A stretch of DNA of 64,000 nt from an uncultured Succiniclasticum sp. (GTDB lineage: Bacteria; Bacillota; Negativicutes; Acidaminococcales; Acidaminococcaceae). A model generated the notes under the pieces. It saw only the letters and a list, made by a program, of their open reading frames with translations. It made no database searches and was not told the origin of the DNA. The position numbers and the translations under genes were made by a program. Of this stretch, positions 47,655 to 64,000 are shown in pieces. Numbering within the stretch: the first letter of the stretch is position 1; each line of letters starts with the position of its first letter. The stretch is taken from the NCBI GenBank assembly GCA_902801365.1, contig CADCHY010000012.1, positions 1-64,000 of the forward strand. Direction: 5' to 3'.

Positions 47655-50300
47655 TCATTTACTACTTGTTCCAACATTTATTGGTCGAAATTTTAGTTCG
47701 TTCACCTCATCAGAAATACGTTCAACCAATTCTAATAGATTTTTTATTTCGCTTTTCGTAAACTCAGGTATTGAATCGTCAAAATGCGTACCTTTATTTA
47801 AAAGTATCCAAGCATAAGAATGTATTAATATATTTAAGTCAGTCTTAATTACATCGGTCTTTTCAAATTTGTTTTTTAGTACTTTTGATAATGCTATTGC
47901 TCTAGAATAAAGATCTGGCGGCGAATTAAGTTTTCGTAAATTTACACTTATTCCATCTTTTGCAAATGGGACTATTTTTTTCCAAAGCTCGCTCGTAATA
48001 CACTCTACTGCCTGCCTACATTTTGCAGCACAATCCTTCAATTCTCCGCTTTCAAAATATCGCCGTGCAACTTTTAACGGAACAGTAGAATCTTCATATT
48101 TAATCGTTATACCACGACTATTTAAGCTATCTGCCGGAAGGAAAAAATACCGATTATACAACTTTTGATTATTTACACGGCTCTCCAAATTGGCTACAAA
48201 CAAATCACCATGACAGGTAATCACCATCTGAATATCTGCGAAATCAGGATGTGACGTCAGCAAATTTGCTATGCCATCTCTATGATCGTCATCAATCGCA
48301 TTAACGACATCATCAAAAATTAAAAATGGAACTTTACTCTTTACTGCTTTAGCTAATAGTATCGACAAGCCAAGAATTCGTACATGGCCTTCACTTAAAA
48401 TCAACATGGCGTCATAAAAATTATCGCCACTCATTTTTACCATAATTCTTTCATTCGATGATGTTGGTAAAACAAGATTTTCTATCATCTCAAACTCTGC
48501 ATCATCTTGGTTAATAAAATTATAATATTCCTGCACTTTAACAGAAAGATCTTTTGCCATTTCTACAGGCAATTTTAAGGCATAGTCTTTAAGAGATTTT
48601 TTTACAAAATAATACGCTTCAGTCATTTTAGAATTAAAATCAATTTCTGATGACTCTTCTTTTACTTTTGAAGCTAATAACTGAAATCCTTTCTCACTTT
48701 CCTCAATCTCTTTTTCCCAGGTTTTTATTCTCTTATTTGCTCCCTCAACATCTCCATATTTCTCCGTAATATCTTTGTAAGTATTTTGCAACGTTTTTAT
48801 TATTTCTCCATACTTCTCATTTTCTTCATTTGCTCGTTTATTATGTTGTTCAATCTTTTTACATAATTCATCATTATCGAATAGAACACTATGAATTTTT
48901 AATACAATCTCTGCACCTTTATTACTCTTTTCAGATAATGTTACAAAACCATCTTTTGAAAAATCCGTATTTATAAAAGTTGATATTTCAATACTTTGAA
49001 AGAGATTTCCAATCTCCGGTTTTTTCAAATATTCTTTAATTATCTGCGAACAAGATACCAAATTACTAGCTTCCGTTTGTATTGTTCTTTTTGCACGATT
49101 AATTTCATCAAGCTTCGTTAATTCTGTGGTCGCATATTCAAAAGGATTAACATCAACCCGTTCTAATGGAGTTTGACATACAGGGCAGCGCAACTCAGTC
49201 CAATTGTCTTTAACTTTAATCAAAGCCTTAAATAATTCATATAAATTTGCATTTGCAACATTGTTAAGTATAAGAGAAGCATTCTTTGAAATTAAACTAT
49301 GGCTTGTCTTAAATTTTTGTATTTCAATAGTTAATTTTTCTATATCATCTTCTTCAATCACTGGTATAGTTTTGCCATTCTTTTCCGCTAAAAGATTTGG
49401 TATTATACCATTATTTGGATCCATCAAATAGAATTTTGCTTTTTCAACATCCGTTACCGTTTCAACATTTAAACCTTTAATGATTGAGTTCACCTCATCA
49501 ATTATCGGTTTAATCCTTTCCTTTTCCTTTTGGATTGTTTTCTTCTTCTCTTTAACGGTTTCGTATTGCTTTTCATATTCTTCTTTTTTAACTGCCTTTA
49601 ATTTAATGTACCGCTCATCAAAATTATCCGTAAACCCCGAAACAAAATTTTGAAATTCAGATAGTCCAAATAATGCAGCTATTCTATCAGTTTGATTTTT
49701 CGCAGTTGTTGCACCTATATGAGAAAACTCATCAATACGATTTTTTTCCAGGAAGGCAAATCTATAGACCGAAAAATTAGGTTCACATTGCTTAATATTA
49801 GAATCATTATATAAGCATTCTAAAACAGGCGTGGTCGCTTTTTTACAACCTGCATGCACAATGTACTTATCAACCGACATGTTCCTAGTTGAGGCTTCTT
49901 CAATAAATCCCAGCAATCTATATTCAAGGGCTTCGCAAAAACTAGTTTTTCCAGATCCATTTGGTCCATGAAAAAATGTAAATCTTTTATCCAAAGGAAA
50001 TTCAACCTCTGTATCAAATCCACGAAACTTTTCAACTTTTAAATTTTTAATTCGTTTAATAGTAACTGGCTGTATTTCATCAACTGAAGTTGCTTGCGAA
50101 CAAGATTGGAACTTCTGATTCAATTCAGAGATATATTGTCCAATCAACTTTGCCCGTTCTCCATTTGCAGTACCAACTCTCGCAATCTCATCAAAATGAT
50201 TTAATAAAATATTAATTATTGTCTGTTGTGGAGGCGTTAATTGTTCAATATTTAATTTTGAAAGCCATTTATTAAATTCATATTTTGCATACTCGTACAT
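47655..50300 (-). CDS. SMC/Rad50-like zinc-hook ATPase
   Basis: An 881-residue AAA/ABC-type ATPase: Walker A GPNGSGKTS near residue 105, a long coiled-coil region with a zinc hook CPVC near residue 370, an LSEGHVRIL signature and Walker B FLIFDDV. About 85 helical residues precede Walker A and about 150 follow the ATPase core, ending with a helical segment containing LLNKGTHF. The layout is that of RecF/RloC-like defence ATPases. I prefer the ATG at 50300 with GGAG six bases upstream. It is paired with the CoiA-like gene. Confidence 0.8.
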   Translation of the reverse strand: MYEYAKYEFNKWLSKLNIEQLTPPQQTIINILLNHFDEIARVGTANGERAKLIGQYISELNQKFQSCSQATSVDEIQPVTIKRIKNLKVEKFRGFDTEVEFPLDKRFTFFHGPNGSGKTSFCEALEYRLLGFIEEASTRNMSVDKYIVHAGCKKATTPVLECLYNDSNIKQCEPNFSVYRFAFLEKNRIDEFSHIGATTAKNQTDRIAALFGLSEFQNFVSGFTDNFDERYIKLKAVKKEEYEKQYETVKEKKKTIQKEKERIKPIIDEVNSIIKGLNVETVTDVEKAKFYLMDPNNGIIPNLLAEKNGKTIPVIEEDDIEKLTIEIQKFKTSHSLISKNASLILNNVANANLYELFKALIKVKDNWTELRCPVCQTPLERVDVNPFEYATTELTKLDEINRAKRTIQTEASNLVSCSQIIKEYLKKPEIGNLFQSIEISTFINTDFSKDGFVTLSEKSNKGAEIVLKIHSVLFDNDELCKKIEQHNKRANEENEKYGEIIKTLQNTYKDITEKYGDVEGANKRIKTWEKEIEESEKGFQLLASKVKEESSEIDFNSKMTEAYYFVKKSLKDYALKLPVEMAKDLSVKVQEYYNFINQDDAEFEMIENLVLPTSSNERIMVKMSGDNFYDAMLILSEGHVRILGLSILLAKAVKSKVPFLIFDDVVNAIDDDHRDGIANLLTSHPDFADIQMVITCHGDLFVANLESRVNNQKLYNRYFFLPADSLNSRGITIKYEDSTVPLKVARRYFESGELKDCAAKCRQAVECITSELWKKIVPFAKDGISVNLRKLNSPPDLYSRAIALSKVLKNKFEKTDVIKTDLNILIHSYAWILLNKGTHFDDSIPEFTKSEIKNLLELVERISDEVNELKFRPINVGTSSK

Positions 50301-50475
50301 ATAACACTCCATATTTTATAACTTTATATTATCAAAATATTGTATGTTCAACTACTACGTGTTTAGGTTTTTTGGGCATTATCGTCCTCAAAATATTAAA
50401 CTTAAATGATCTCACAAAGATCTCTGTAACTGCAAATCTAAAGGGCACGACAAATCAGGTATTTATTAAATCTAT

Positions 50476-50796
50476 TCACAGCCTGTCATACTTGTCTGCT
50501 TTACCCCTGGCCTTCTCTACCGGATACTTGGCCTCGTTCCTACTCATCTTTGCATTGACGATTTCATCTTCATCGAGGCCCAGCTTGTCCAGCATGTTTC
50601 TGCAATACACCAAAACATCCGCCAGCTCCTCTTTTACATGAGCCAAATCGTACTCCGTATCGCTCCACTGGAAACACTCCAGCAGCTCATTGGCCTCAAT
50701 GGAGATGGATTTGGCCAGATTGGCAGGTGTATGGAACTGATCCCAGTCCCGGTCTTCCGTAAATTTCCGGATCCTGTCTATGGTTTCCTGTTTCAT
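50476..50796 (-). CDS. MazG-like nucleotide pyrophosphohydrolase
   Basis: A 106-residue single-domain MazG-type enzyme that hydrolyses non-canonical or excess nucleoside triphosphates. The metal-binding helices show EANELLECFQW and EELADVLVYC, the E-x-x-E and E-x-x-D patterns of this superfamily. It is monocistronic; the next gene upstream on the same strand is the DUF2075 helicase, 164 bases away. It is close in composition to the left part of the window rather than to the AT-rich ATPase gene. Confidence 0.88.
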   Translation of the reverse strand: MKQETIDRIRKFTEDRDWDQFHTPANLAKSISIEANELLECFQWSDTEYDLAHVKEELADVLVYCRNMLDKLGLDEDEIVNAKMSRNEAKYPVEKARGKADKYDRL

Positions 50797-50959: not shown

Positions 50960-52879
50960 TCACTGACTCTCCCCGTCACGTTCTGCCACTTTCAACAGCG
51001 GTTCCGTAACATCGTACGATACAAGGAACGAACGGATGTAATCCGCCAGCGCCTTATCCTCGCAATAGATGAAGCAGCCTTTCTGTCCCCGGGTCAGCAG
51101 TGTCTTGTAGGTGTTCCTGATCAGTCTCGCAGCCACATCGTCCTTTGCGGAACGGATGCCGGAAGACTTATCGTCTTTGGAAATCTTTGTCCGGTCGGTG
51201 ATGATCTTTCCGCCGGCTTTGTCAAAGCGCAAATCGTTTCCGATCAGCACACCGATATAATCAAATTCCAACCCCTGAGCCGTGTGGATGCAGCCAACTT
51301 CTTCAAAAGAATCCGGGTTGATGGCCCAGATTTTGTCATGCTCCAGATTCCACTTCGCCTTAAACCCGTTTTCCAGATAAATATCGTAATCGCCCCGGTT
51401 GTGTTTCACATTCCAGTCATAACAGTAACCGGCCACCATCCGGGCCTTATTATTGATTTTGTTTAACTCACGCAACGTATCCCGCAGCGCATTGGGATCA
51501 TCAAACACCCGGATGTCGAAGTTCAGCTCTTTCAAATCGATATCCACCGGTTCCCCGATCTGCAGAATGTTGTTGATGAGCTGGATATACTGATCGCTGC
51601 CGTTGCAACGGAACTGGGACTGCAGGACCGTATCCTCATTCATGATGATTTCGCTGCCCAGTTCCTCCGCCCACTTTTTGATTTCCGCAATGGATCCGAT
51701 ATCCTTTTTGGTAATCTGCTGGTCCTCATCCAGCAAAAATACGGTAAACAGCGAAGCGTTGATGCATTCTTTCACCTGATTTTCCCCATCCCAGTCTCCG
51801 TACATTTTCTTCACGAGACGATGGGTTTCGTCTACAATCAGGCAATCGTAAAAATTCCGAGGTACCTTGCACAAATTAAACGGAGACCGGAACAGCTGCT
51901 TTATGTTCACCTGGGCTTTTAAATCCGATTTGGCCAGCAGCTTCTGATAGGCCTCTCGCGGGGCACTGTTTTTCGTACAATAACTGGCGTTCAGTTCTTT
52001 CGTGATGAAATCTTTCAGCAGGTTGACCGCAAGGACAGATTTTCCCGTTCCGGGCCCGCCCTGAATGATGATGGTTCGCTTCTGCAAATCTTTCAAGCAC
52101 TGGGCCATGTACTTTTTACACAGATCAAAAACCACGGCCTGATCATCCAGCAACATGAATTCCTCGTTGCCCTTCATCAGGGAAACCAGACAATCCTGCA
52201 AGGCTTTGGACGGACGGATCCTGCCGTTATCGATTTTATACAGCAGGTCCCCCGAGGAAGATCTGCTGACGATGAACTTTTTAATGAAACTCCGCAGCTG
52301 CAAGACCTGGCTTTTGTCAAACAGCGGCGCTTCTTCCAGCCAGAGACTGTAAATGTCGTCATCCAGCGGCATCCTTGCTGCCGGACCGCAATTATGCAGG
52401 TACGCGCAGGGCTTTATGCCGATGCGTTCATCCTGCACCTGCTCCGAAGAATTTTTAATAAATGTTGCGTAGGCATAGGCCTGATACGAAGGATGATTCA
52501 CAATGCGGTTCGCGCCGCCGGTAAAGGCCCGGACGCTGTGGCGCATGATATCGTCCACCTTCTCCGCGCTCTCCCATTGCTTCAGTTCCACCACAACCAC
52601 GTTGCTTGTGTGGGAAGCATCCGCCCCCGCGATCATAAAATCCACGCGCTTGGAAGTTCTGGGAATCTGATACTCGATAGCGACTTCCACATCATTGGGG
52701 ATGTCCGGATCATCGATGGCAGAACGCATAAAATGCAGGGAATTCTGCCAGGACCGATACTCTGCATCCTGTCCCCCGGACAAATGCTTCTCCCGAAGCT
52801 TTTCCAGAATTTTATCGGAAATCAGGTTCAGATTTACATCGTTATTAAACTGACTCTTGGTGCCACTGTAGACTATCAT
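50960..52879 (-). CDS. DUF2075 helicase with an N-terminal nuclease-like domain
   Basis: A 639-residue protein. About residues 60-110 look like a PD-(D/E)XK-type core (RVDFMIAG then VVVVELKQW). A superfamily-1-type ATPase follows: Walker A GGPGTGKS near residue 275, DETHRLV and LLDEDQQI as motif II and III regions, and VGCIHTAQGLEFDYIGV as a motif V-like segment near the end. COG3410/DUF2075 proteins of this layout occur in defence contexts. GAGGA lies before the ATG. It is monocistronic between MazG and the orphan GyrA domain. Confidence 0.8.
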   Translation of the reverse strand: MIVYSGTKSQFNNDVNLNLISDKILEKLREKHLSGGQDAEYRSWQNSLHFMRSAIDDPDIPNDVEVAIEYQIPRTSKRVDFMIAGADASHTSNVVVVELKQWESAEKVDDIMRHSVRAFTGGANRIVNHPSYQAYAYATFIKNSSEQVQDERIGIKPCAYLHNCGPAARMPLDDDIYSLWLEEAPLFDKSQVLQLRSFIKKFIVSRSSSGDLLYKIDNGRIRPSKALQDCLVSLMKGNEEFMLLDDQAVVFDLCKKYMAQCLKDLQKRTIIIQGGPGTGKSVLAVNLLKDFITKELNASYCTKNSAPREAYQKLLAKSDLKAQVNIKQLFRSPFNLCKVPRNFYDCLIVDETHRLVKKMYGDWDGENQVKECINASLFTVFLLDEDQQITKKDIGSIAEIKKWAEELGSEIIMNEDTVLQSQFRCNGSDQYIQLINNILQIGEPVDIDLKELNFDIRVFDDPNALRDTLRELNKINNKARMVAGYCYDWNVKHNRGDYDIYLENGFKAKWNLEHDKIWAINPDSFEEVGCIHTAQGLEFDYIGVLIGNDLRFDKAGGKIITDRTKISKDDKSSGIRSAKDDVAARLIRNTYKTLLTRGQKGCFIYCEDKALADYIRSFLVSYDVTEPLLKVAERDGESQ

Positions 52880-52918: not shown

Positions 52919-53827
52919 TTAACGAGTGTTTTTTCCACTGCCTGCCCTGCAAATCGCCGTAACTTTATCGCCATCGTGCAATCTCATCGCAATTACGCCC
53001 CGGGCAAAGCGACCACAATTCTTCAGTTCCTCCGCGTCCACACAGAGAACGTAGCCTTTTGCGGTAAACAGGAACAGCTCATCGTCAGGATTCACAAAGC
53101 ACATGCCCGCAACAGAACCGGTTTTGGGGGACAACCTGTAACTGATCCGTCCCTTTCCGCCCCGGCTTTGCTTTTTGTATTCGGAAATTTTCGTTCGCTT
53201 GCCAATCCCGTTTTCCGTTACCGACAACACATCAAGGGATTCATCGCGAACCACATCCATTGCAACTACATAATCGCGGCTATACAGATTGATGCCTTTC
53301 ACCCCATGGGCGGATCGGATCATGCAGCGCACTTCCTGCTCATCAAAATGAATCGCTATGCCATCGTGTGTAGCCAACAGAATGGAATTGCTTCCGTCCG
53401 TTATTTTTACGCTGATCAGTTCTTCGCCATCATGCAATACGATGGCCTTCAACCCGTTCTTTCTGACAGAAGAAAACTCCGTCAGCTTACAGCGTTTAAC
53501 CGTTCCCTTATTGGTCGCCATAAACAAAAACTTATTATCCTCAAATTCGGGAACACTGAGTACAGCCGTAATCTTTTCGTCCGCACCCAGCGGCAGCAGA
53601 TTAATCACCGCGCTCCCCTTTGCCTTGCGGCCGGCTTCCGGAATCTGATACCCCCGCAGCATATAAGCCTGCCCTTTATTGGTAAAGAACAGGACATAGT
53701 CATGGGTTTTGGCAAGAAACAGATAACGATTAAAGTCACCGCTCTTGTTACTGCTGCCAAGAATTCCAAAGCGACCTCTATGTTGCTTGGGTACATTACC
53801 CGTTGTTTGTTGTTTGCTATCTTCCAT
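52919..53827 (-). CDS. Free-standing DNA gyrase A C-terminal domain (beta-pinwheel)
   Basis: A 302-residue protein equivalent to the C-terminal wrapping domain of GyrA without the cleavage-reunion domain. Repeats such as THDYVLFFTNKGQAYML, FLFMATNKGTVKRCKL and LLATHDGIAIHF follow the six-blade pinwheel pattern, with the matching GKRTKISEYKKQSRGGKG stretch. Full GyrA places this module after the catalytic Tyr domain; here only an about 20-residue N-terminal extension precedes it. The ATG at 53827 is preferred; a TTG seven codons earlier is possible. It may bind and wrap DNA on its own. Confidence 0.85.
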   Translation of the reverse strand: MEDSKQQTTGNVPKQHRGRFGILGSSNKSGDFNRYLFLAKTHDYVLFFTNKGQAYMLRGYQIPEAGRKAKGSAVINLLPLGADEKITAVLSVPEFEDNKFLFMATNKGTVKRCKLTEFSSVRKNGLKAIVLHDGEELISVKITDGSNSILLATHDGIAIHFDEQEVRCMIRSAHGVKGINLYSRDYVVAMDVVRDESLDVLSVTENGIGKRTKISEYKKQSRGGKGRISYRLSPKTGSVAGMCFVNPDDELFLFTAKGYVLCVDAEELKNCGRFARGVIAMRLHDGDKVTAICRAGSGKNTR

Positions 53828-54048
53828 TTTGCAGGTTATTCCTTTCAATCGTTGGCAATACTTGTTTTTTTAATATGTAAACAGTAAATTTGCTATGTCC
53901 CATGTTATTGTACTGTAAAGCATCTTGCTAATAAGTTTTTAATTCAATATAAATTCAGTATATTAGATATTAGATAATCTCGCTTTTCTTAATTATAACA
54001 AAACAACACTTGGAAAACTATGATTATTATTAAATGGTTTATGAATAA

Positions 54049-55110
54049 TTAAGGATTTAAAATCTCAGTATCCTGCATCTCATATTTATCATTGCAAATA
54101 GTAACTCCTGTAAAAGGAATTCCTTTGGTTCTGCAGATATTGATTATCTTATCCTGATCATCTTGATCCATTTTATTCCCCAGAAAGACTTTTGATATTG
54201 GCAAGAATTTACAATTATAATCACCTATATTTGCGTATTTTGAATCATAAGAAATATATCGCCATTCATTTTGATATTTCCAGTCTATACTTTTCATTAG
54301 CAAACCATATTTAAATACTTTCCAAAAAGATTGATCAGTTAGCATTTTTAGCGTATTAAATTCAATGCACTGTTCTAACAAACTAACTCTTTCGTCACTG
54401 TAGATTACAGGAAACAATGTACTAAAGAGAGGACTATCAGGTATAGCTGTTAGATCATATTCTATGCAAAAGCCTTTATGCCCATTAGCATAATGCGACC
54501 ACATCAACATAGAATAGGGATTTGTCGTAAAGCAAGATATTCGAAACTTCTCGCATAAGAATTTCTGTGCGTGATCATAATTTTCAAGTATCATCAAATT
54601 AATAGCTTTTTGAACTTTATCATTTTCATGTTTATATCTTACCACTATGCAACACTCGCAAAGTAAAACTGATGCCAAAATATTGTTGTGAAGCACCTGA
54701 TCTTTAATGTTTTGTAAGTTAAATATATTCTCAATTTTTCTTCCATCTTGTAATTCTTTTGTTATAAAAAAAGAAAATTCGTTTAATTTTTGTTTATAAC
54801 CCACACCGGATGTTAATTGACACCCACATAGTCCTGCGTAAAAATCAATCATGCGAATCATAAACTCACTTTTATCAATTGTAATTAAAGAATCATATGG
54901 ATCATCAAAATATATAGGGCTCTGCAAGTAAACAGTATTGTTTTCTAATGCTTGAACTGAATAATTACAACAATTACTTTCTAAATTCGGAAAATATTTA
55001 TATAATTTTTGCGGAAAATTTTCAGAAATAATTCCTGAGAAATCGTCAGCATTCATATTCATGACAAAAGACTTGGGATATAGTTGATTATTAATAAAAT
55101 AGCTTGACAT
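54049..55110 (-). CDS. DUF2971 protein
   Basis: A 353-residue soluble protein with the DUF2971 pattern: LYKYFPNLES early, then LQSPIYFDDPYD, ISCFTTNPYSMLMWSHYANGHKGFCIEYDL and a QNEWRYI segment in the last third. DUF2971 proteins are common in defence islands and are candidate effectors, but their chemistry is not settled. It is AT-rich and lies 84 bases after the E2-like gene on the same strand, so it may belong to the CBASS transcript. GGAG precedes the ATG at some distance. Confidence 0.75.
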   Translation of the reverse strand: MSSYFINNQLYPKSFVMNMNADDFSGIISENFPQKLYKYFPNLESNCCNYSVQALENNTVYLQSPIYFDDPYDSLITIDKSEFMIRMIDFYAGLCGCQLTSGVGYKQKLNEFSFFITKELQDGRKIENIFNLQNIKDQVLHNNILASVLLCECCIVVRYKHENDKVQKAINLMILENYDHAQKFLCEKFRISCFTTNPYSMLMWSHYANGHKGFCIEYDLTAIPDSPLFSTLFPVIYSDERVSLLEQCIEFNTLKMLTDQSFWKVFKYGLLMKSIDWKYQNEWRYISYDSKYANIGDYNCKFLPISKVFLGNKMDQDDQDKIINICRTKGIPFTGVTICNDKYEMQDTEILNP

Positions 55111-55193: not shown

Positions 55194-55640
55194 TCACTTA
55201 ACGCCAACATTTCTTAGGCTTATAGCTTCAGGATATACCCACTCTCCAGTGATTTGCCAATATTCATACGAACTCAACCACGTAATAATCCACGGAACAA
55301 AAGTTTTTGAAAGATACATGCTGTCCTGCCACTCATTTCTGTCTGGAAAGAATACGCATAATTGTGCGTGTCCCTTTTTTGTAAAGCCGTAAATATGATG
55401 AGGATTCTTTCCATCTACCTGCGCTAATTCTTTTGGCTCCAATAGCCACACCTTAGGCCAAGCCCCTGTCTTAAACCAAATTTTAACTTTGTAAACTATA
55501 CTTGTTTCATTTGGTTGCAAACGCATTATACAATTTAATTCGTTTCTTTTGACAAAGATGTCATCTATTAACATGGGATACATAATCCTCAACGACATCA
55601 TTTGTTCACCTAACGTTACAGGTTTCATGAGTTGCTTCAT
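55194..55640 (-). CDS. E2-like protein of a type II short CBASS
   Basis: A 148-residue protein of the bacterial E2-conjugase-like family found in short type II CBASS operons, where it attaches to or regulates the CD-NTase without an E1. The conserved C-terminal pattern is present: QLCVFF (candidate catalytic Cys95), RNEWQDSM, FVPWIITWLSSYEYW and TGEWVYPEA. It begins three bases after the CD-NTase stop, which fits translational coupling. The assignment rests on motif and gene order. Confidence 0.75.
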   Translation of the reverse strand: MKQLMKPVTLGEQMMSLRIMYPMLIDDIFVKRNELNCIMRLQPNETSIVYKVKIWFKTGAWPKVWLLEPKELAQVDGKNPHHIYGFTKKGHAQLCVFFPDRNEWQDSMYLSKTFVPWIITWLSSYEYWQITGEWVYPEAISLRNVGVK

Positions 55641-55642
55641 AT

Positions 55643-56803
55643 TTATACCTTACCGAAATGATGAATCGGTGGAACCGCCACCATACCAAACGCTGAAATA
55701 TTGCCGGTTTTGGTATCGACCTTGAGTTCTTTTTTCCTAACTGCCTCTGCCTCCATTAAGCCCATTTGTGTGAATAAAGCATTACCTGTATTAGAGCCGA
55801 ACATTTTCTTAATATGTTTACCCATCATAACACGATCCATCATACTGAGTTTCTCAAAATTAAAATCTTCTTTTAATTGCCTGATCCACACAAAAAATGC
55901 ACGTTGTCTTTCGGGATGTTCACCCCATTTATCAGCAAAATCTTCGCCCGCATAACTTGGATTTGGTATACTGAAATTCCCGTTTTCTTTTTTAGTCGAA
56001 AACAAATATGTTTCCACGTTATTAACAAACCCCAACAATGTTTCAATAATACTGTCTTCTCCATTATAAAGTTGCGCAGCCAACGTTGTCACAATAATTG
56101 AAATCGGTTTGTTATCAGCATCATCCTCAAACATTACATCGCGGTGCCGCTTTAATAACTGAACAGCTTGTTGCAGCTTTGATTTTTGTTTTGTTTGTTT
56201 AATAGGTGCCTGAATTGCCATATCCTGAATTGCCACACGCCTTTGCGTTTTACTACCACTTTTATTGCATTGTTGCAAAAACCATTTTACATACCCTTTA
56301 GGATTACTGCCAATATAACTATATGTATTCTGTTCTTCATCTTTATCAGTAATTTTAATCTGTGTTCCCTCAACAAGATTTTTTGGTACTGCCGGAATTA
56401 CATCCATATGGAAGTTAGGCAACTCTTCGTATTCAACATGCCAGCAACGTCGTTTTTCTTCAATTTCTGTTTTTGTCCGTTTATAACCTTTTAGCCAAGG
56501 TTTAACAACTTTGTTTTTCAATTCCCTTGCGGTAAAATCCGTAGCATCATTTACTTCACAAACCAGATCTAAATCATAATCATCTTCATCACTGATGGGT
56601 TTAATAACCGTTGCCAGTGCAAATGATCCCTGCGGATAAATCTGTACCACACAGCCCGGCATTTCTTCTTCTGTTTTCTTATTAATCCAACTACCAAGCG
56701 CTTTATATTCCTTATCAGCATCATTAAACAGTTTATCGCTGATATTAATCCTTTTTGCAACATCCGCAAAAATTTTTTCTATGGTTTCTTTAGAATACGA
56801 CAT
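55643..56803 (-). CDS. CD-NTase (cGAS/DncV-like cyclic nucleotide synthase) of CBASS
   Basis: A 386-residue nucleotidyltransferase with the CD-NTase core: GS at 59-60 in YPQGSFALAT, the metal-binding DxD (Asp77 and Asp79) in YDLDLVCEV, and a third Asp134 in FHMDVIPA. An OAS1-like helical C-terminal domain follows. On phage infection such enzymes make a cyclic oligonucleotide that activates the effector. It is encoded between the membrane effector gene (16 bases upstream) and the E2-like gene (3 bases downstream). AAGGAG precedes the ATG. The exact product cannot be read from sequence. Confidence 0.88.
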   Translation of the reverse strand: MSYSKETIEKIFADVAKRINISDKLFNDADKEYKALGSWINKKTEEEMPGCVVQIYPQGSFALATVIKPISDEDDYDLDLVCEVNDATDFTARELKNKVVKPWLKGYKRTKTEIEEKRRCWHVEYEELPNFHMDVIPAVPKNLVEGTQIKITDKDEEQNTYSYIGSNPKGYVKWFLQQCNKSGSKTQRRVAIQDMAIQAPIKQTKQKSKLQQAVQLLKRHRDVMFEDDADNKPISIIVTTLAAQLYNGEDSIIETLLGFVNNVETYLFSTKKENGNFSIPNPSYAGEDFADKWGEHPERQRAFFVWIRQLKEDFNFEKLSMMDRVMMGKHIKKMFGSNTGNALFTQMGLMEAEAVRKKELKVDTKTGNISAFGMVAVPPIHHFGKV

Positions 56804-56818
56804 CTATAACACTTCTCC

Positions 56819-57652
56819 TTAAAAAATTTTTATGTATTTGTTTTCAATAAATTTTCGTCCATCATCATTTGACTGTTCATAAACATTTAAACTTTTTATA
56901 CCGTCCCTTCCCCCCGTAGAAAAAACCTCCATTGCAATGTGATAGGAATGCTTTGTGTTAATTGTTGCAAACAGGTTAATCGTATTAACATATTCAGGCA
57001 AACTACGTACTTCTCTGGTAATACGACTAATAAAGTCAGGGCTGTAATACCGACTCCTGTCATCATTTGAACGATCAACTATAATAGTTGTAAAATTAAT
57101 TACCGTTTCCGGTATTTGTTTTCTCCAATTCAATGGATAGGTATCCGCAAGAACCAAATTTACAGTAGGGGTAATCTTTTCGTCATTAAATATTTTAACT
57201 CTCACATTATCAGTTCCCATTTTTTTATCACAGACACCTTCTTCGCATTTAAATTCTTCAAATGCATTATTACAAACAAGTTTAAACTGCATTGGTATCG
57301 GAACTCTTGTCAATGACACTTTCTTATAATTGAGTATACGATTACAAAATAAATAACCATAATATGAATGCCAAACAATTTTATTAGTCAGCGTCTGTTT
57401 TAATACATGTTCCTCATTCCATGAACGAATAATCCATAAAGCCGTCAATATAAACAAAAAACCTAAAATTAACTTTATAATATTGCCATCAATATTTATT
57501 TTTATAGTAAGTCCAATAATAGGTAATGTAAAAACCGGCGTTAAAATTTGAACTATGTCAAAAAAATAATTATAAATACATAAACCCACAATCAAAAACA
57601 AACCACATACCTGTAAAATCGGTCTCGACCAATCTCTAATACGATCAAGCAA
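56819..57652 (-). CDS. Membrane effector of CBASS, possibly TM-SAVED (Cap14-like)
   Basis: A 277-residue protein with three hydrophobic helices in the first 80 residues (about 12-30, 33-50 and 58-77), then a soluble domain. The C-terminal part (NTINLFATINTKHSYHIAMEVF ... SLNVYEQ) has the spacing of a SAVED-type cyclic-oligonucleotide-binding domain, which would make this a membrane-disrupting effector. The match is weak and other two- or three-helix effectors are possible. The start is a TTG with GGAGGTG upstream. It leads the CBASS operon. Confidence 0.6.
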   Translation of the reverse strand: MLDRIRDWSRPILQVCGLFLIVGLCIYNYFFDIVQILTPVFTLPIIGLTIKINIDGNIIKLILGFLFILTALWIIRSWNEEHVLKQTLTNKIVWHSYYGYLFCNRILNYKKVSLTRVPIPMQFKLVCNNAFEEFKCEEGVCDKKMGTDNVRVKIFNDEKITPTVNLVLADTYPLNWRKQIPETVINFTTIIVDRSNDDRSRYYSPDFISRITREVRSLPEYVNTINLFATINTKHSYHIAMEVFSTGGRDGIKSLNVYEQSNDDGRKFIENKYIKIF

Positions 57653-57988: not shown

Positions 57989-58438
57989 CTATATTTCCAA
58001 ATATAATTTTGAAGAGGAAAAAAAGTTAAAAACCTGTAGCAAAATATTATCTGAAATCACCTCAGATTTTCTCATTCTGCGTATTGTGCATTCCCAAACT
58101 ACCAGGCATTTTATATTCTTCTCTGCCAGCTGTTTTAACACTTCTTCATCACGTTTAACATTTTTTTCAAACTTATCATTCCAGAAATCTGTTCTGCTTT
58201 TGGGCATATAAGCATATTTACAGTTTTTGTGCCTGTGCCAGAAACAGCCATGAACAAAAATCGCCGTATGATATTTTGCAAGGTATAAATCCGGATGGCC
58301 AGGAATGTTACTGACATTTTTTCTGTAACGGAATCCCCTTGAAAACAGTAATTTCCTGAAAAAAACTTCTGGTTTTGTATCTTTACTCCGTATAGCAGAC
58401 ATATTCCTGCTTCTGGCTTCTTTCGTCTTAATGTCCAT
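57989..58438 (-). CDS. vsr: Very short patch repair endonuclease
   Basis: A 149-residue Vsr nuclease that nicks at T:G mismatches left by deamination of 5-methylcytosine. The family motifs are visible: RSRNMSAIRSKDTKPE near the start, GHPDLYLAKY and FVHGCFWHRHKNC, and VVWECTIRR near the end. The start overlaps the stop of the restriction gene by one base. Its presence with a 5mC methyltransferase means the host repairs damage caused by that modification. Confidence 0.92.
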   Translation of the reverse strand: MDIKTKEARSRNMSAIRSKDTKPEVFFRKLLFSRGFRYRKNVSNIPGHPDLYLAKYHTAIFVHGCFWHRHKNCKYAYMPKSRTDFWNDKFEKNVKRDEEVLKQLAEKNIKCLVVWECTIRRMRKSEVISDNILLQVFNFFSSSKLYLEI

Positions 58439-59625
58439 TATGCAGTTTCTTTTTCCTTAATGTACTCAATAAATTTTCCAATGCTCCAGATATGATCCTG
58501 CCACTCTGCAGGATATGTTCTGATATATGGTTTCGGTACAACAAGGCAAACTTTTTCAGCAGCCATTTCTTCCATCTGTTTTACAGATATTCCCTGTTGC
58601 AGTGTGCAGAGGAATTTCGTTTCATCCCTTAAACGATCTGCTTCATTAAGAATCTGCCTCCACCTGTCTTTACAGGTAGTTTTGGCAGCAAGTGAAGTCA
58701 ATTTTGACGTTGTAAAAGAGGGATTGTGATAAGCAGCACCTGATGGGAAAATGAAATCCGGTGTTTTGTTTCCTTCTGTAACGACCTGGGATTCAAAGGC
58801 GATTTCATTTCCACTGAAAAGTGCGGCCAGGTGATTTTCCAGACTTTTTCCGGCTCTGCTCTTTCTCCGGTTTATCAATGATTTAGCCAGCTCAATAAAT
58901 TCGTCAATACTATTAAAACCCCGTTCTATAGTTGGCCATTCGAGTGCATGTTCTACTGCTTTAAACACACGGTATTCTTCATTGGTCCAGTCTATAAGTT
59001 TTCTGTCCGGATTGATCCTGATGTAGTCGTCATGATTGTAGATTTCTCCCTGAATCAGTCTTGCAATTTTTGCCATAACTTTTGTCTCAGGGAACTTTGT
59101 GTCAGGCCCGAGACTGTTGATAAATCGATTTATGGCTTCTTCTTCTCTGGTTTCTAACTTCACGGAACCAGTATCAATCAGTGAATTGGTCTGAGTTGGA
59201 CTCATACCAAAAGAATCCAAAAACTGGTCAATCAAGTCTGCATTATCCAGAATAAATGCGCTATATGTTTCTTCCGTATACTTTACAAGTACAAATAGAG
59301 AACCTGTATACTCCGGTCTGAGAAATTCAAAATCCCTGCCAAAATTAGTAATCCGATATTCGTTACGTGTCCCCTGTCCATAATAAATGAAACGTGTTTC
59401 AGTGGTTTTACCATCCTGCCACTCTATATTGACCCACCTGTCATGGTTCTGCCCCTTTTCAAAAAGCTGATCAAAAATAATCGGAACAGCAGGTTTTGCT
59501 ATATAAATACCTGCCTGATGTCCACCGGTTTTACCAGTATCATTGGCAGAAAGGAACTTGCAAAACGACTTCTTTCCACCCATTACGGAAAGGATTGCCT
59601 GTGTTGCCAGATTCTGTGTAACCAT
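58438..59625 (-). CDS. EcoRII-like type II restriction endonuclease
   Basis: A 395-residue protein resembling EcoRII: an N-terminal DNA-binding domain and a C-terminal PD-(D/E)XK nuclease with TPDFIFPSGAAYHNP and SLAAKTTCKDRWRQIL as the catalytic region. EcoRII enzymes recognise CCWGG and need two sites. It lies 14 bases after the methyltransferase stop. GGAG lies just before the ATG. The Dcm-like methyltransferase and Vsr fit a CCWGG-type system, but the recognition site is inferred. Confidence 0.82.
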   Translation of the reverse strand: MVTQNLATQAILSVMGGKKSFCKFLSANDTGKTGGHQAGIYIAKPAVPIIFDQLFEKGQNHDRWVNIEWQDGKTTETRFIYYGQGTRNEYRITNFGRDFEFLRPEYTGSLFVLVKYTEETYSAFILDNADLIDQFLDSFGMSPTQTNSLIDTGSVKLETREEEAINRFINSLGPDTKFPETKVMAKIARLIQGEIYNHDDYIRINPDRKLIDWTNEEYRVFKAVEHALEWPTIERGFNSIDEFIELAKSLINRRKSRAGKSLENHLAALFSGNEIAFESQVVTEGNKTPDFIFPSGAAYHNPSFTTSKLTSLAAKTTCKDRWRQILNEADRLRDETKFLCTLQQGISVKQMEEMAAEKVCLVVPKPYIRTYPAEWQDHIWSIGKFIEYIKEKETA

Positions 59626-59639
59626 AATCTCCGCCTTTC

Positions 59640-60782
59640 TTACAAAGCTATTTTATAATTATCAACGGCCTCAAGTTCATGCAGCTTTTTTACGATTAGC
59701 TGAGCAACATTTGTCATAAGAGGTACCACGACAGAATTACCAAACTGCATATAGGCCTGGGTATCAGAAACAGGTATTTTAAACGTATCAGGGAAGCCTT
59801 GAAGACGCGCACATTCTCTTGGCGTAAGCTTACGCGGATTTTTACCTTCCTGGGCAATCAGTATTTCCGAACCGTCTTTATAATATCTGGCACTCAGTGT
59901 CCTTGCAGCTCCGTCACGCGGGGCAATACCATAACCAAATCCGTTGCCTTTTGCTTTATGCTTTGCAGCATAATCTTGAAGATACTGCCACAACTTGTCT
60001 GACAACGTATATTTGTCAGAAACATAATCCTGAAGAATCCCAGCCATAACCGGTCTGGGATCAGCAGGTGTAATATCAAAACTGAAATCAACATCAGTTC
60101 CAAAACGTTTTCTGTCAAAGCCTACAATAATAATTCTTTCTCTATGCTGCGGTACATAATTCTGCCCGTCAATCACCTGATAAAAAATTTTATAATCAAG
60201 TTCATCCAGCGATTCACAGATCACTTTAAATGTACGACCCTTATCATGGCTGCAGAGATTCTTTACATTCTCCAGCATAAAAGCCTTCGGCCTTTTCGCT
60301 TTTATAATCCGGCAAACATCAAAAAACAGAGTTCCCTGAGTCTTATCCTCAAACCCCGTAGCACGACCCAGGCTGTTTTTCTTGGAAACGCCGGCAATAG
60401 AAAAAGGCTGGCAGGGAAAACCAGCCACCAGAATATCATGATCCGGGATGTTTTCAGCCTCAACTTTTGTTATATCACCATCTGGCACTTCTCCAAAATT
60501 AGAAAAATATGTCCGCTGACAGTATTTATTCCATTCATTGGAATAAACACACTGCCCGCCTGCCGTTTCAAACGCAATGCGCATGCCACCGATACCGGCG
60601 AACAGATCAATAAAAGTAAAATCACCACTTTTCAGACTGCGTTTCTGCTTCTGCTGTTCAAACAGATCCATCAGAGCAAACGAAATACATTCCTGAACTG
60701 TCTGACCGGAATACTTTGCATATTCTGCCAGTTCTTCGTAAACAACATCATCTAAACGTACATGAATTTGTTTATTACCCAT
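59640..60782 (-). CDS. DNA (cytosine-5) methyltransferase with N-terminal RHH-like domain
   Basis: A 380-residue C5-methyltransferase with motif I FAGIGGM at 61-67, the catalytic PCQPFS (Cys124), ENVKNL, and the C-terminal QFGNSVVVP. The first 45 residues ([20 protein letters not shown]...) look like a ribbon-helix-helix DNA-binding module, which could let the enzyme repress its own promoter as several R-M methyltransferases do. GGAGG precedes the ATG. It is the first gene of the M-R-vsr operon. Confidence 0.9.
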
Positions 60783-62617: not shown

Positions 62618-64000
62618 TTAACTCCTGTCAACTAATAATGGACCAAAGAAGCCCTTATCCCTTTTTTCAATTGTTCCAACAACGGAAGCTCTGTCCAGAA
62701 GACAATTTCTCATTTCACAGCATGTTTCCGGCAACAATGCACAGGCATGACATGCTGCATAATTTAAAGAATCATAACCCTGGGCTTTGGATTCAATGCA
62801 CACAGGATCAGAGGAACACCATGAAGCTTCCTGTAGCATGTTCCTGAAAATCAATTCAAAGGCATCAGTGTGTCCATTCCTGACCAGCCCGCCAAGGCTT
62901 CCATCAGAATCAGAAGAAGAAGTATACAGTAAAATACCTGCCATTCTAACATTTGAACCCGGATATGTACTGTAAATTCTCTCTTTAATAGAGGCACCAG
63001 AATAACCACACTCAAACGTTAACTGACGAATCAGAAGATGGGCCAGTGTGTGCAACAGTACATACCTTGCTGAAAAATTGTCACATCCTACATTACTTGA
63101 TTGCAGCCTTGCTCCCATAGGAACATAATCATCTGCTGTATTAACCTCCCATTTTTTTAGAGCTTCTTCCTTTAATCTGATAAAAATACCTTCTCCCAGT
63201 AAATCTATTGCAGGCAGCCAATTTAGATCTGTGTCACTTAACGGAACACAGTCTTTTGTAAGATGGTAACCTTCAAATCTTTCATCCTGTAAATCTGGCT
63301 GTTCCGGCGATATCCGGCGAAATCCTCTGAGCGCCAGAACTTCTCTTAGCCTTTTGACAAGAATAACATCTTCCAAGTAGTCCTCAAGGAACTGAGGCAC
63401 AACAGTTCGTTCTATACGAAACTGTACATCTTCTGGCCTGTTATAATTACCTGAACAGAAAACTCTGTATTCATCTTCCAGCAGATTCTGTTTTGTATAT
63501 TCGCTCTCATCAAAGCTTCCGTACCGTTTTTTTATTTCTTCTATCAGTTCTTCAAGTGTGCATATGCCTGTGGCCAAAAACGGCTGAAAAACAGCCAAAG
63601 CAACAGCTTTCAATGTTTCTTCAGACGGATTATTGTCCAGTATTGGTTTTATATTTTCCCATTTGTCGTCTATTTCCTGCTGAATTTTAGTGCTCCATGG
63701 AGGGATTGTCAGTGCACTTGCGGTTATTGAAAAGTAAATATTTGAAGCACCGCGTTGCAGGGCACGCACATGCGCAGTACACTTCACCGGATCAGAAAAC
63801 TCTTTTCTTCTTCCCAGCCATGGCCGTCTTCCGTGACACGAATAACCGTTCATGGCATCTTTACTGAAACAACCGGCCATAGAACGAGTTTTCCCACAGG
63901 CAGTACATTTTATGACAATACTGTCAAGTCCGCTGGTTTTATCAGAAAACTCTATACGAAGAATTCCATCCCTTTTTTCTGCAGGACAGTCCGATATATT
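62618..64000 (-). CDS. DrmB-like DUF1998 protein (5' end outside window)
   Basis: The frame continues to the window edge, so the N-terminus is missing. A zinc-type cluster (KCTACGK near 63890) precedes the visible body, and the C-terminal half carries the DUF1998/DrmB pattern: HTLAHLLIRQLTFECGYSGASIKERIYS, ILLYTSSSDSDGSLGGLV and a Cys-rich end (CHACALLPETCCEMRNC). DrmB is the DUF1998 subunit of DISARM, a defence system that uses host methylation. It is coupled to the NERD helicase, followed by a cytosine methyltransferase, matching a DISARM-like theme without proof of the other subunits. Confidence 0.75.
   Translation of the reverse strand, partial: NISDCPAEKRDGILRIEFSDKTSGLDSIVIKCTACGKTRSMAGCFSKDAMNGYSCHGRRPWLGRRKEFSDPVKCTAHVRALQRGASNIYFSITASALTIPPWSTKIQQEIDDKWENIKPILDNNPSEETLKAVALAVFQPFLATGICTLEELIEEIKKRYGSFDESEYTKQNLLEDEYRVFCSGNYNRPEDVQFRIERTVVPQFLEDYLEDVILVKRLREVLALRGFRRISPEQPDLQDERFEGYHLTKDCVPLSDTDLNWLPAIDLLGEGIFIRLKEEALKKWEVNTADDYVPMGARLQSSNVGCDNFSARYVLLHTLAHLLIRQLTFECGYSGASIKERIYSTYPGSNVRMAGILLYTSSSDSDGSLGGLVRNGHTDAFELIFRNMLQEASWCSSDPVCIESKAQGYDSLNYAACHACALLPETCCEMRNCLLDRASVVGTIEKRDKGFFGPLLVDRS

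Follow-up and report, generated by a model that had tools for sequence, protein, structure and literature searches.

A gene in a defence island of an uncultured rumen Succiniclasticum sp. encodes the C-terminal pinwheel of the DNA gyrase subunit GyrA as a protein of its own; the gene originated inside the GyrA of its own genus, is under purifying selection and retains the DNA-contact residues of that domain. We put the chances at about even that the product is a free DNA-binding protein with reduced wrapping, serving as a nucleoid-associated or architectural protein or as a local regulator, where DNA binding, a reduction in wrapping and a role in regulation or architecture are each predictions drawn from sequence.

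A stand-alone gene for the GyrA C-terminal domain

The gene, hereafter the orphan, lies on the minus strand of the window, which is the whole 64,000-nucleotide stretch analysed from this genome (G000, an assembly 93% complete), and forms an intact open reading frame of 302 aa from the ATG at 53827 to the stop at 52919 (Table 1). The free-standing GyrA C-terminal domain reported here by a preliminary description of the DNA was confirmed by Pfam analysis, in which DNA_gyraseA_C (PF03989) was the sole family found (199.6 bits, E 3.7e-60), with five repeats in one stop-free frame, and the breakage-reunion domain PF00521 was absent from the protein. Solved GyrA C-terminal domains matched the orphan with E down to 1.9e-63, and a chance origin of the resemblance is excluded. 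Among the NCBIfam models, two for gyrA gave 302 and 289 bits and parC_Gpos gave 120 bits, the best score (301.9 bits) missing the curated gyrA cut-off of 902. The AlphaFold models of the orphan and of G000's own GyrA tail rest on shallow alignments (mean pLDDT 59 and 53, respectively), and residues 1-93 of the former, including the first blade, fall below pLDDT 50; with this orphan model of mean pLDDT 59, GyrA tails ranked first in Foldseek.

An in-frame TTG at 53848 lies upstream of the ATG and is an unlikely start, since both orthologues share the ATG as their start, with a conserved GAAAGG in front of it. Unlike this motif, the remaining upstream DNA of the three orphans is not conserved in the alignment. 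Promoter-like sites around the gene numbered 13 versus 11.8 +/- 3.3 in shuffled sequences, and terminator-like sites 6 versus 3.8 +/- 2.3, an excess of about one standard deviation at most.

Table 1. Positions of the orphan, its sequence elements and neighbouring genes in the window
Feature	Position	Strand	Remarks
SMC/RecF-like ATPase	47655..50312	-	885 aa; AT-rich (32% GC); resembles LmuB
MazG-like nucleotide pyrophosphohydrolase	50476..50796	-	Beside helicase; neighbourhood varies between relatives
Schlafen group 3 (DUF2075) DNA/RNA helicase	50960..52879	-	39 bp downstream of orphan, same strand
Orphan gene	52919..53827	-	302 aa; five PF03989 blades; net charge +12, pI 9.4
Short C-terminal end (CRAGSGKNTR region)	52922..52948	-	Replaces GyrA acidic tail; alignment
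QSRGGKG repeat	53150..53170	-	Fifth GyrA blade, with R222 (= Salmonella R766); alignment
Degenerate GyrA box QHRGRFG	53765..53785	-	QQRGGIG in G000's GyrA; alignment, consensus from PMC3510516
Ribosome-binding-site-like GAAAGGAA	53839..53846	-	Upstream of ATG; GAAAGG in 3/3 orthologues; three-way alignment of upstream DNA
DUF2971 / PADLOC PDC-S31 gene	54049..55110	-	Upstream of orphan, context only; Pfam/PADLOC
CBASS-type operon	55194..57652	-	E2-like protein, DncV-like cyclase, 2TM effector
Restriction-modification genes	57989..60782	-	EcoRII-like restriction enzyme, C5 cytosine methylase, Vsr-like gene
DrmB-like (DISARM) protein	62618..64000	-	Cut by window edge; no other DISARM part seen

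Origin and distribution of the orphan

One full gyrA is present in G000, encoding 843 aa with six PF03989 repeats on contig C15, which is not the window contig, and PF00521 was found once in the genome, in this gene. Neither parC nor a second PF00521 protein was found in the 93% complete assembly; with its single PF00521 protein, G000 thus has gyrase without the topoisomerase IV subunit ParC at this level of completeness. The orphan is 62.6% identical to G000's GyrA tail, and its identity to the GyrA of congeners is similar (overall range 62-64%).

Two orthologues (81-84% identical) were identified, both intact frames and both of the Acidaminococcaceae lineage. The first, 81% identical, is in Acidaminococcaceae bacterium UBA2453 (G002; 75% complete, no gyrA seen), the sole other carrier within the genus. 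The second (84% identity) was found on a contig of 9.8 kb (L040, JAEEXX010000062.1) in a rumen metagenome-assembled genome labelled Gastranaerophilales. Since L040 shares with genus member G008 an AbiEi gene at 91% identity, and with G002 a 33-residue stretch at 94%, this contig most likely belongs to the Acidaminococcaceae genus and was misbinned. All three orphan sequences come from draft metagenome-assembled genomes.

Phylogenetic analysis grouped the three orphans into one clade (100/100) nested among the GyrA proteins of the genus at 96/99 support; the stem of this clade is long (0.64 changes per site). In the alignment, homology to GyrA starts close to the QTPDN motif, which immediately precedes the GyrA box. 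As the clade is nested within the genus's GyrA and the orphan is similarly identical to its own and its congeners' GyrA, these sequence comparisons identify it as an old duplicate of the 3' part of the genus's gyrA, now an independent accessory gene.

Two other origins were ruled out. A fragment of a broken gyrA, which the preliminary description had named as the finding that would speak against it, is contradicted by the intact gyrA on C15, the single PF00521, the level of identity to GyrA given above (62-64%), the separate clade of three intact frames, and purifying selection. A parC fragment is contradicted by the occurrence of PF00521 only in gyrA, by the higher scores of the gyrA models, and by the position in the tree.

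The orphan is rare, as had been supposed. The GyrA tail of G007 is identical to that of G000 and those of G005 and G012 are nearly so, and despite these near-identical tails the orphan is absent from G005 and G012 (98-99% complete). In a survey of the class, checked via genomes with more than one match, 2 of the 363 genomes with a match (G000 and G002) held a stand-alone copy among the matches listed; the other short frames and double matches examined looked like gyrA genes split by frameshifts, gaps or contig ends. A sample of 149 well-completed genomes of the phylum yielded no stand-alone copy besides that of G000 among the matches listed. A widespread hidden family was therefore rejected, none having been seen in the class or in the 149-genome sample. 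A phage or plasmid gene was rejected as well: all matches in phage and plasmid collections were below 60% identity, the annotated ones being mostly full gyrA or topoisomerase genes. Scanning viral contigs with the orphan alignment found no relative.

Selection on the orphan

The NG86 dN/dS values of the three orphan pairs are 0.24, 0.20 and 0.16, with a significant synonymous excess in every pair (Fisher p 2e-13 to 8e-24), versus 0.03-0.07 for gyrA tails of the genus. In simulations, 8% of neutral frames were still open after 100 substitutions and 3% after 150, per lineage. The low dN/dS among copies, together with the rarity with which neutral frames stay open, indicates that the orphan is a functional gene kept by selection, but less constrained than gyrA.

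We regard it as very improbable that the orphan is instead a non-functional remnant of a duplicated gyrA, decaying but still without an acquired stop codon. Its truncation, its evolution at a faster rate than gyrA and its absence from most relatives would all be expected of such a fragment, and the weaker constraint (0.16-0.24 versus 0.03-0.07) would fit partial decay. However, neither stops nor frameshifts interrupt any of the three separate copies, against the low neutral expectation just given, every pair has a dN much lower than its dS, and the ribosome-binding site is conserved while the other upstream DNA is not.

Features lost, kept and gained relative to GyrA

Alignment with the GyrA tail revealed that the orphan lacks the first hairpin, the GyrA-box consensus and the acidic tail. 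The earlier label of a DNA-wrapping domain is thus apt in that the protein is a GyrA C-terminal pinwheel, but it is not an intact wrapping domain. The box sequences of the three orphans are QHRGRFG, HHRGRFG and HRRGRYG, none of which fits the consensus Q(R/K)RGG(R/K)G (PMC3510516). Without the GyrA box, the C-terminal domain binds DNA with the same affinity but no longer bends it, and in the isolated domain the acidic tail is an obstacle to wrapping (PMC3510516).

Residues implicated in DNA contact are preserved. Six arginines of Salmonella GyrA matter for DNA binding (R612, R667, R712, R716, R766 and R817; PMC7210945), and their equivalents in the orphan (R67, R122, R167, R171, R222 and R273) are arginine in every case, without variation among the three orphans. 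The sampled GyrA proteins have 20 conserved basic positions, of which the orphan keeps 16; the four lost all lie within the first 27 residues, and five basic positions have been gained. The net charge of the orphans is +11 to +14, compared with 0 to +7 for closely related GyrA domains.

Orphan-specific substitutions cluster in the box region and blade 6 and not in blades 2-5 (Fisher p 7e-4), whereas the outgroup control gave p 0.37. Because the GyrA-box loop of blade 1 joins blade 6 and closes the ring (PMC3510516), this pattern looks like an adjustment of the ring-closing interface to loss of the first hairpin.

Surroundings in defence islands

The position beside defence genes, already pointed out in the preliminary description, recurs in all three orphan copies (3/3), with neighbours that differ between copies. 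The island of the window copy comprises a CBASS operon, an EcoRII-type restriction-modification set, a DrmB protein, a PDC-S31 protein and others (Table 1). The L040 copy adjoins AbiE and Hachiman genes, and the G002 copy is near a PDC-S01 ATPase, a Schlafen group 3 helicase and a PDDEXK_2 transposase. Of all these neighbours, the helicase, seen in the window and in G002, comes closest to a constant companion. The GC content of the orphan and the helicase is 48-50% and host-like, and that of most neighbouring defence genes is 30-41%.

Several further observations concern these neighbourhoods. The region flanking mazG in the window (50476-50796; L071, L066, L069) varies by species, with AbiEi in G008 and another helicase in G012, and looks like a defence hotspot of the genus; G002 carries a decayed mazG remnant after its helicase. 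On L040, a 76-aa open reading frame of no known family (2228-2458) starts 3 bp past the orphan stop, as if translationally coupled. SMC proteins can bind a topoisomerase tail, as MukB does with ParC, and for the 885-aa ATPase of the window we offer such an interaction as an idea only.

The one argument for a defence role of the orphan is its location, which would also fit roles other than a DNA-binding architectural or regulatory one. Among these, it is rather unlikely that the orphan supplies DNA binding to the neighbouring Schlafen group 3 (DUF2075) helicase as its partner, forming with it a small, perhaps antiviral, unit beside mazG. In the window the two genes are 39 bp apart on the same strand, and a 92% identical helicase occurs only in the two orphan carriers of the genus, other members having none or a version of about 45% identity. 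Synonymous divergence between G000 and G002 is matched (dS 0.52 for the orphan and 0.55 for the helicase), and both genes share the host-like GC content that sets them apart from most of their neighbours. Nevertheless, the gene order is reversed in G002, with about 1.9 kb and a nuclease-transposase in between, and on L040 the next gene is the 76-aa frame, with no such helicase seen within the 9.8 kb contig, of which 1.3 kb upstream of the orphan is covered. Same-family helicases elsewhere in the genus have no orphan-like upstream gene, and G000 and G002 may share the pair by descent alone. A conserved orphan-helicase operon was ruled out, as the arrangement is not constant across the three carriers. 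A literature search linking DUF2075 to phage and defense found no paper. It is unlikely, too, that the gyrase tail has been domesticated as a defence-island gene proper, either to regulate the island or to supply a new antiviral system built on the Schlafen helicase with a DNA binder that reads sequence or structure.

Quite improbable, in our estimate, is that the orphan is a gyrase decoy or modulator, which would either soak up a toxin or phage factor by its likeness to the GyrA tail or compete with gyrase for DNA. Its strong resemblance to host GyrA (62-64%) and the presence of all three copies among defence genes would suit such a function. Well-studied gyrase poisons such as CcdB, however, act on the catalytic core and not on the C-terminal domain, and no gyrase-directed toxin was seen among the genes examined beside the three copies. 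Moreover, the residues shared with GyrA have drifted (0.64 changes per site on the stem), which does not favour close mimicry. The earlier proposal of a decoy or a modulator of phage or host gyrase thus gained no specific evidence, and the orphan matched no family among the PADLOC models at E up to 0.001.

Proposed function

We favour the reading of the orphan as a free DNA-binding protein. The duplicated 3' part of gyrA has become an independent accessory gene for a five-repeat beta-pinwheel, which cannot join the gyrase reaction because it has no breakage-reunion domain. This pinwheel most likely binds double-stranded DNA round the rim of blades 2-6 via the kept arginines, as suggested by the retained DNA-contact residues and the added positive charge, and the nucleoid-protein reading put forward earlier is consistent with the same features. 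Given the three losses described above (hairpin, box consensus and acidic tail), binding would be accompanied by reduced or altered wrapping. Strong supercoil wrapping is not expected, since published work connects both the first hairpin and the GyrA-box consensus with bending and wrapping (PMC3510516); the missing acidic tail, for its part, is an element that impedes wrapping by the free domain. By analogy, the orphan may act as a small DNA-binding protein like Gac in Borrelia.

The orphan amounts to a natural experiment in which the wrapping domain of gyrase has been freed from gyrase and has lost its GyrA box and acidic tail. It suggests that a gyrase tail was recruited for a new DNA-binding job, and it hints at a possible new part of bacterial defence islands.

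Comparison with known systems

The C-terminal domain of topoisomerase IV ParC is a related pinwheel, which in E. coli has fewer blades than that of GyrA and no GyrA box. In contrast, the orphan falls within the GyrA of its genus by both sequence and tree, and G000 is without a second PF00521 protein. With GyrA C-terminal domains (Salmonella 5ztj, E. coli 1zi0) the orphan shares PF03989 repeats and the six DNA-contact arginines, but it differs from GyrA in having no N-terminal catalytic domain, five repeats rather than six, a degenerate GyrA box and no acidic tail.

The comparison with Borrelia drawn in the preliminary description is apt. Gac of Borrelia burgdorferi binds DNA, represses ospC and is a proposed nucleoid-associated protein (PMC10127594), and, like the orphan, it is a free protein of the GyrA C-terminal pinwheel alone, alongside full-length GyrA. 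An internal promoter and start in gyrA give rise to Gac, whose sequence is thus that of the GyrA tail itself; the orphan, in contrast, is a gene of its own that differs from G000's GyrA tail by 36-38%, lacks the first hairpin and the acidic tail, and occurs solely in defence islands of a single genus. The orphan shows a Gac-like protein encoded, in a lineage unrelated to Borrelia, by a gene of its own, which is under selection and whose derivation from the gyrA of its host is dated.
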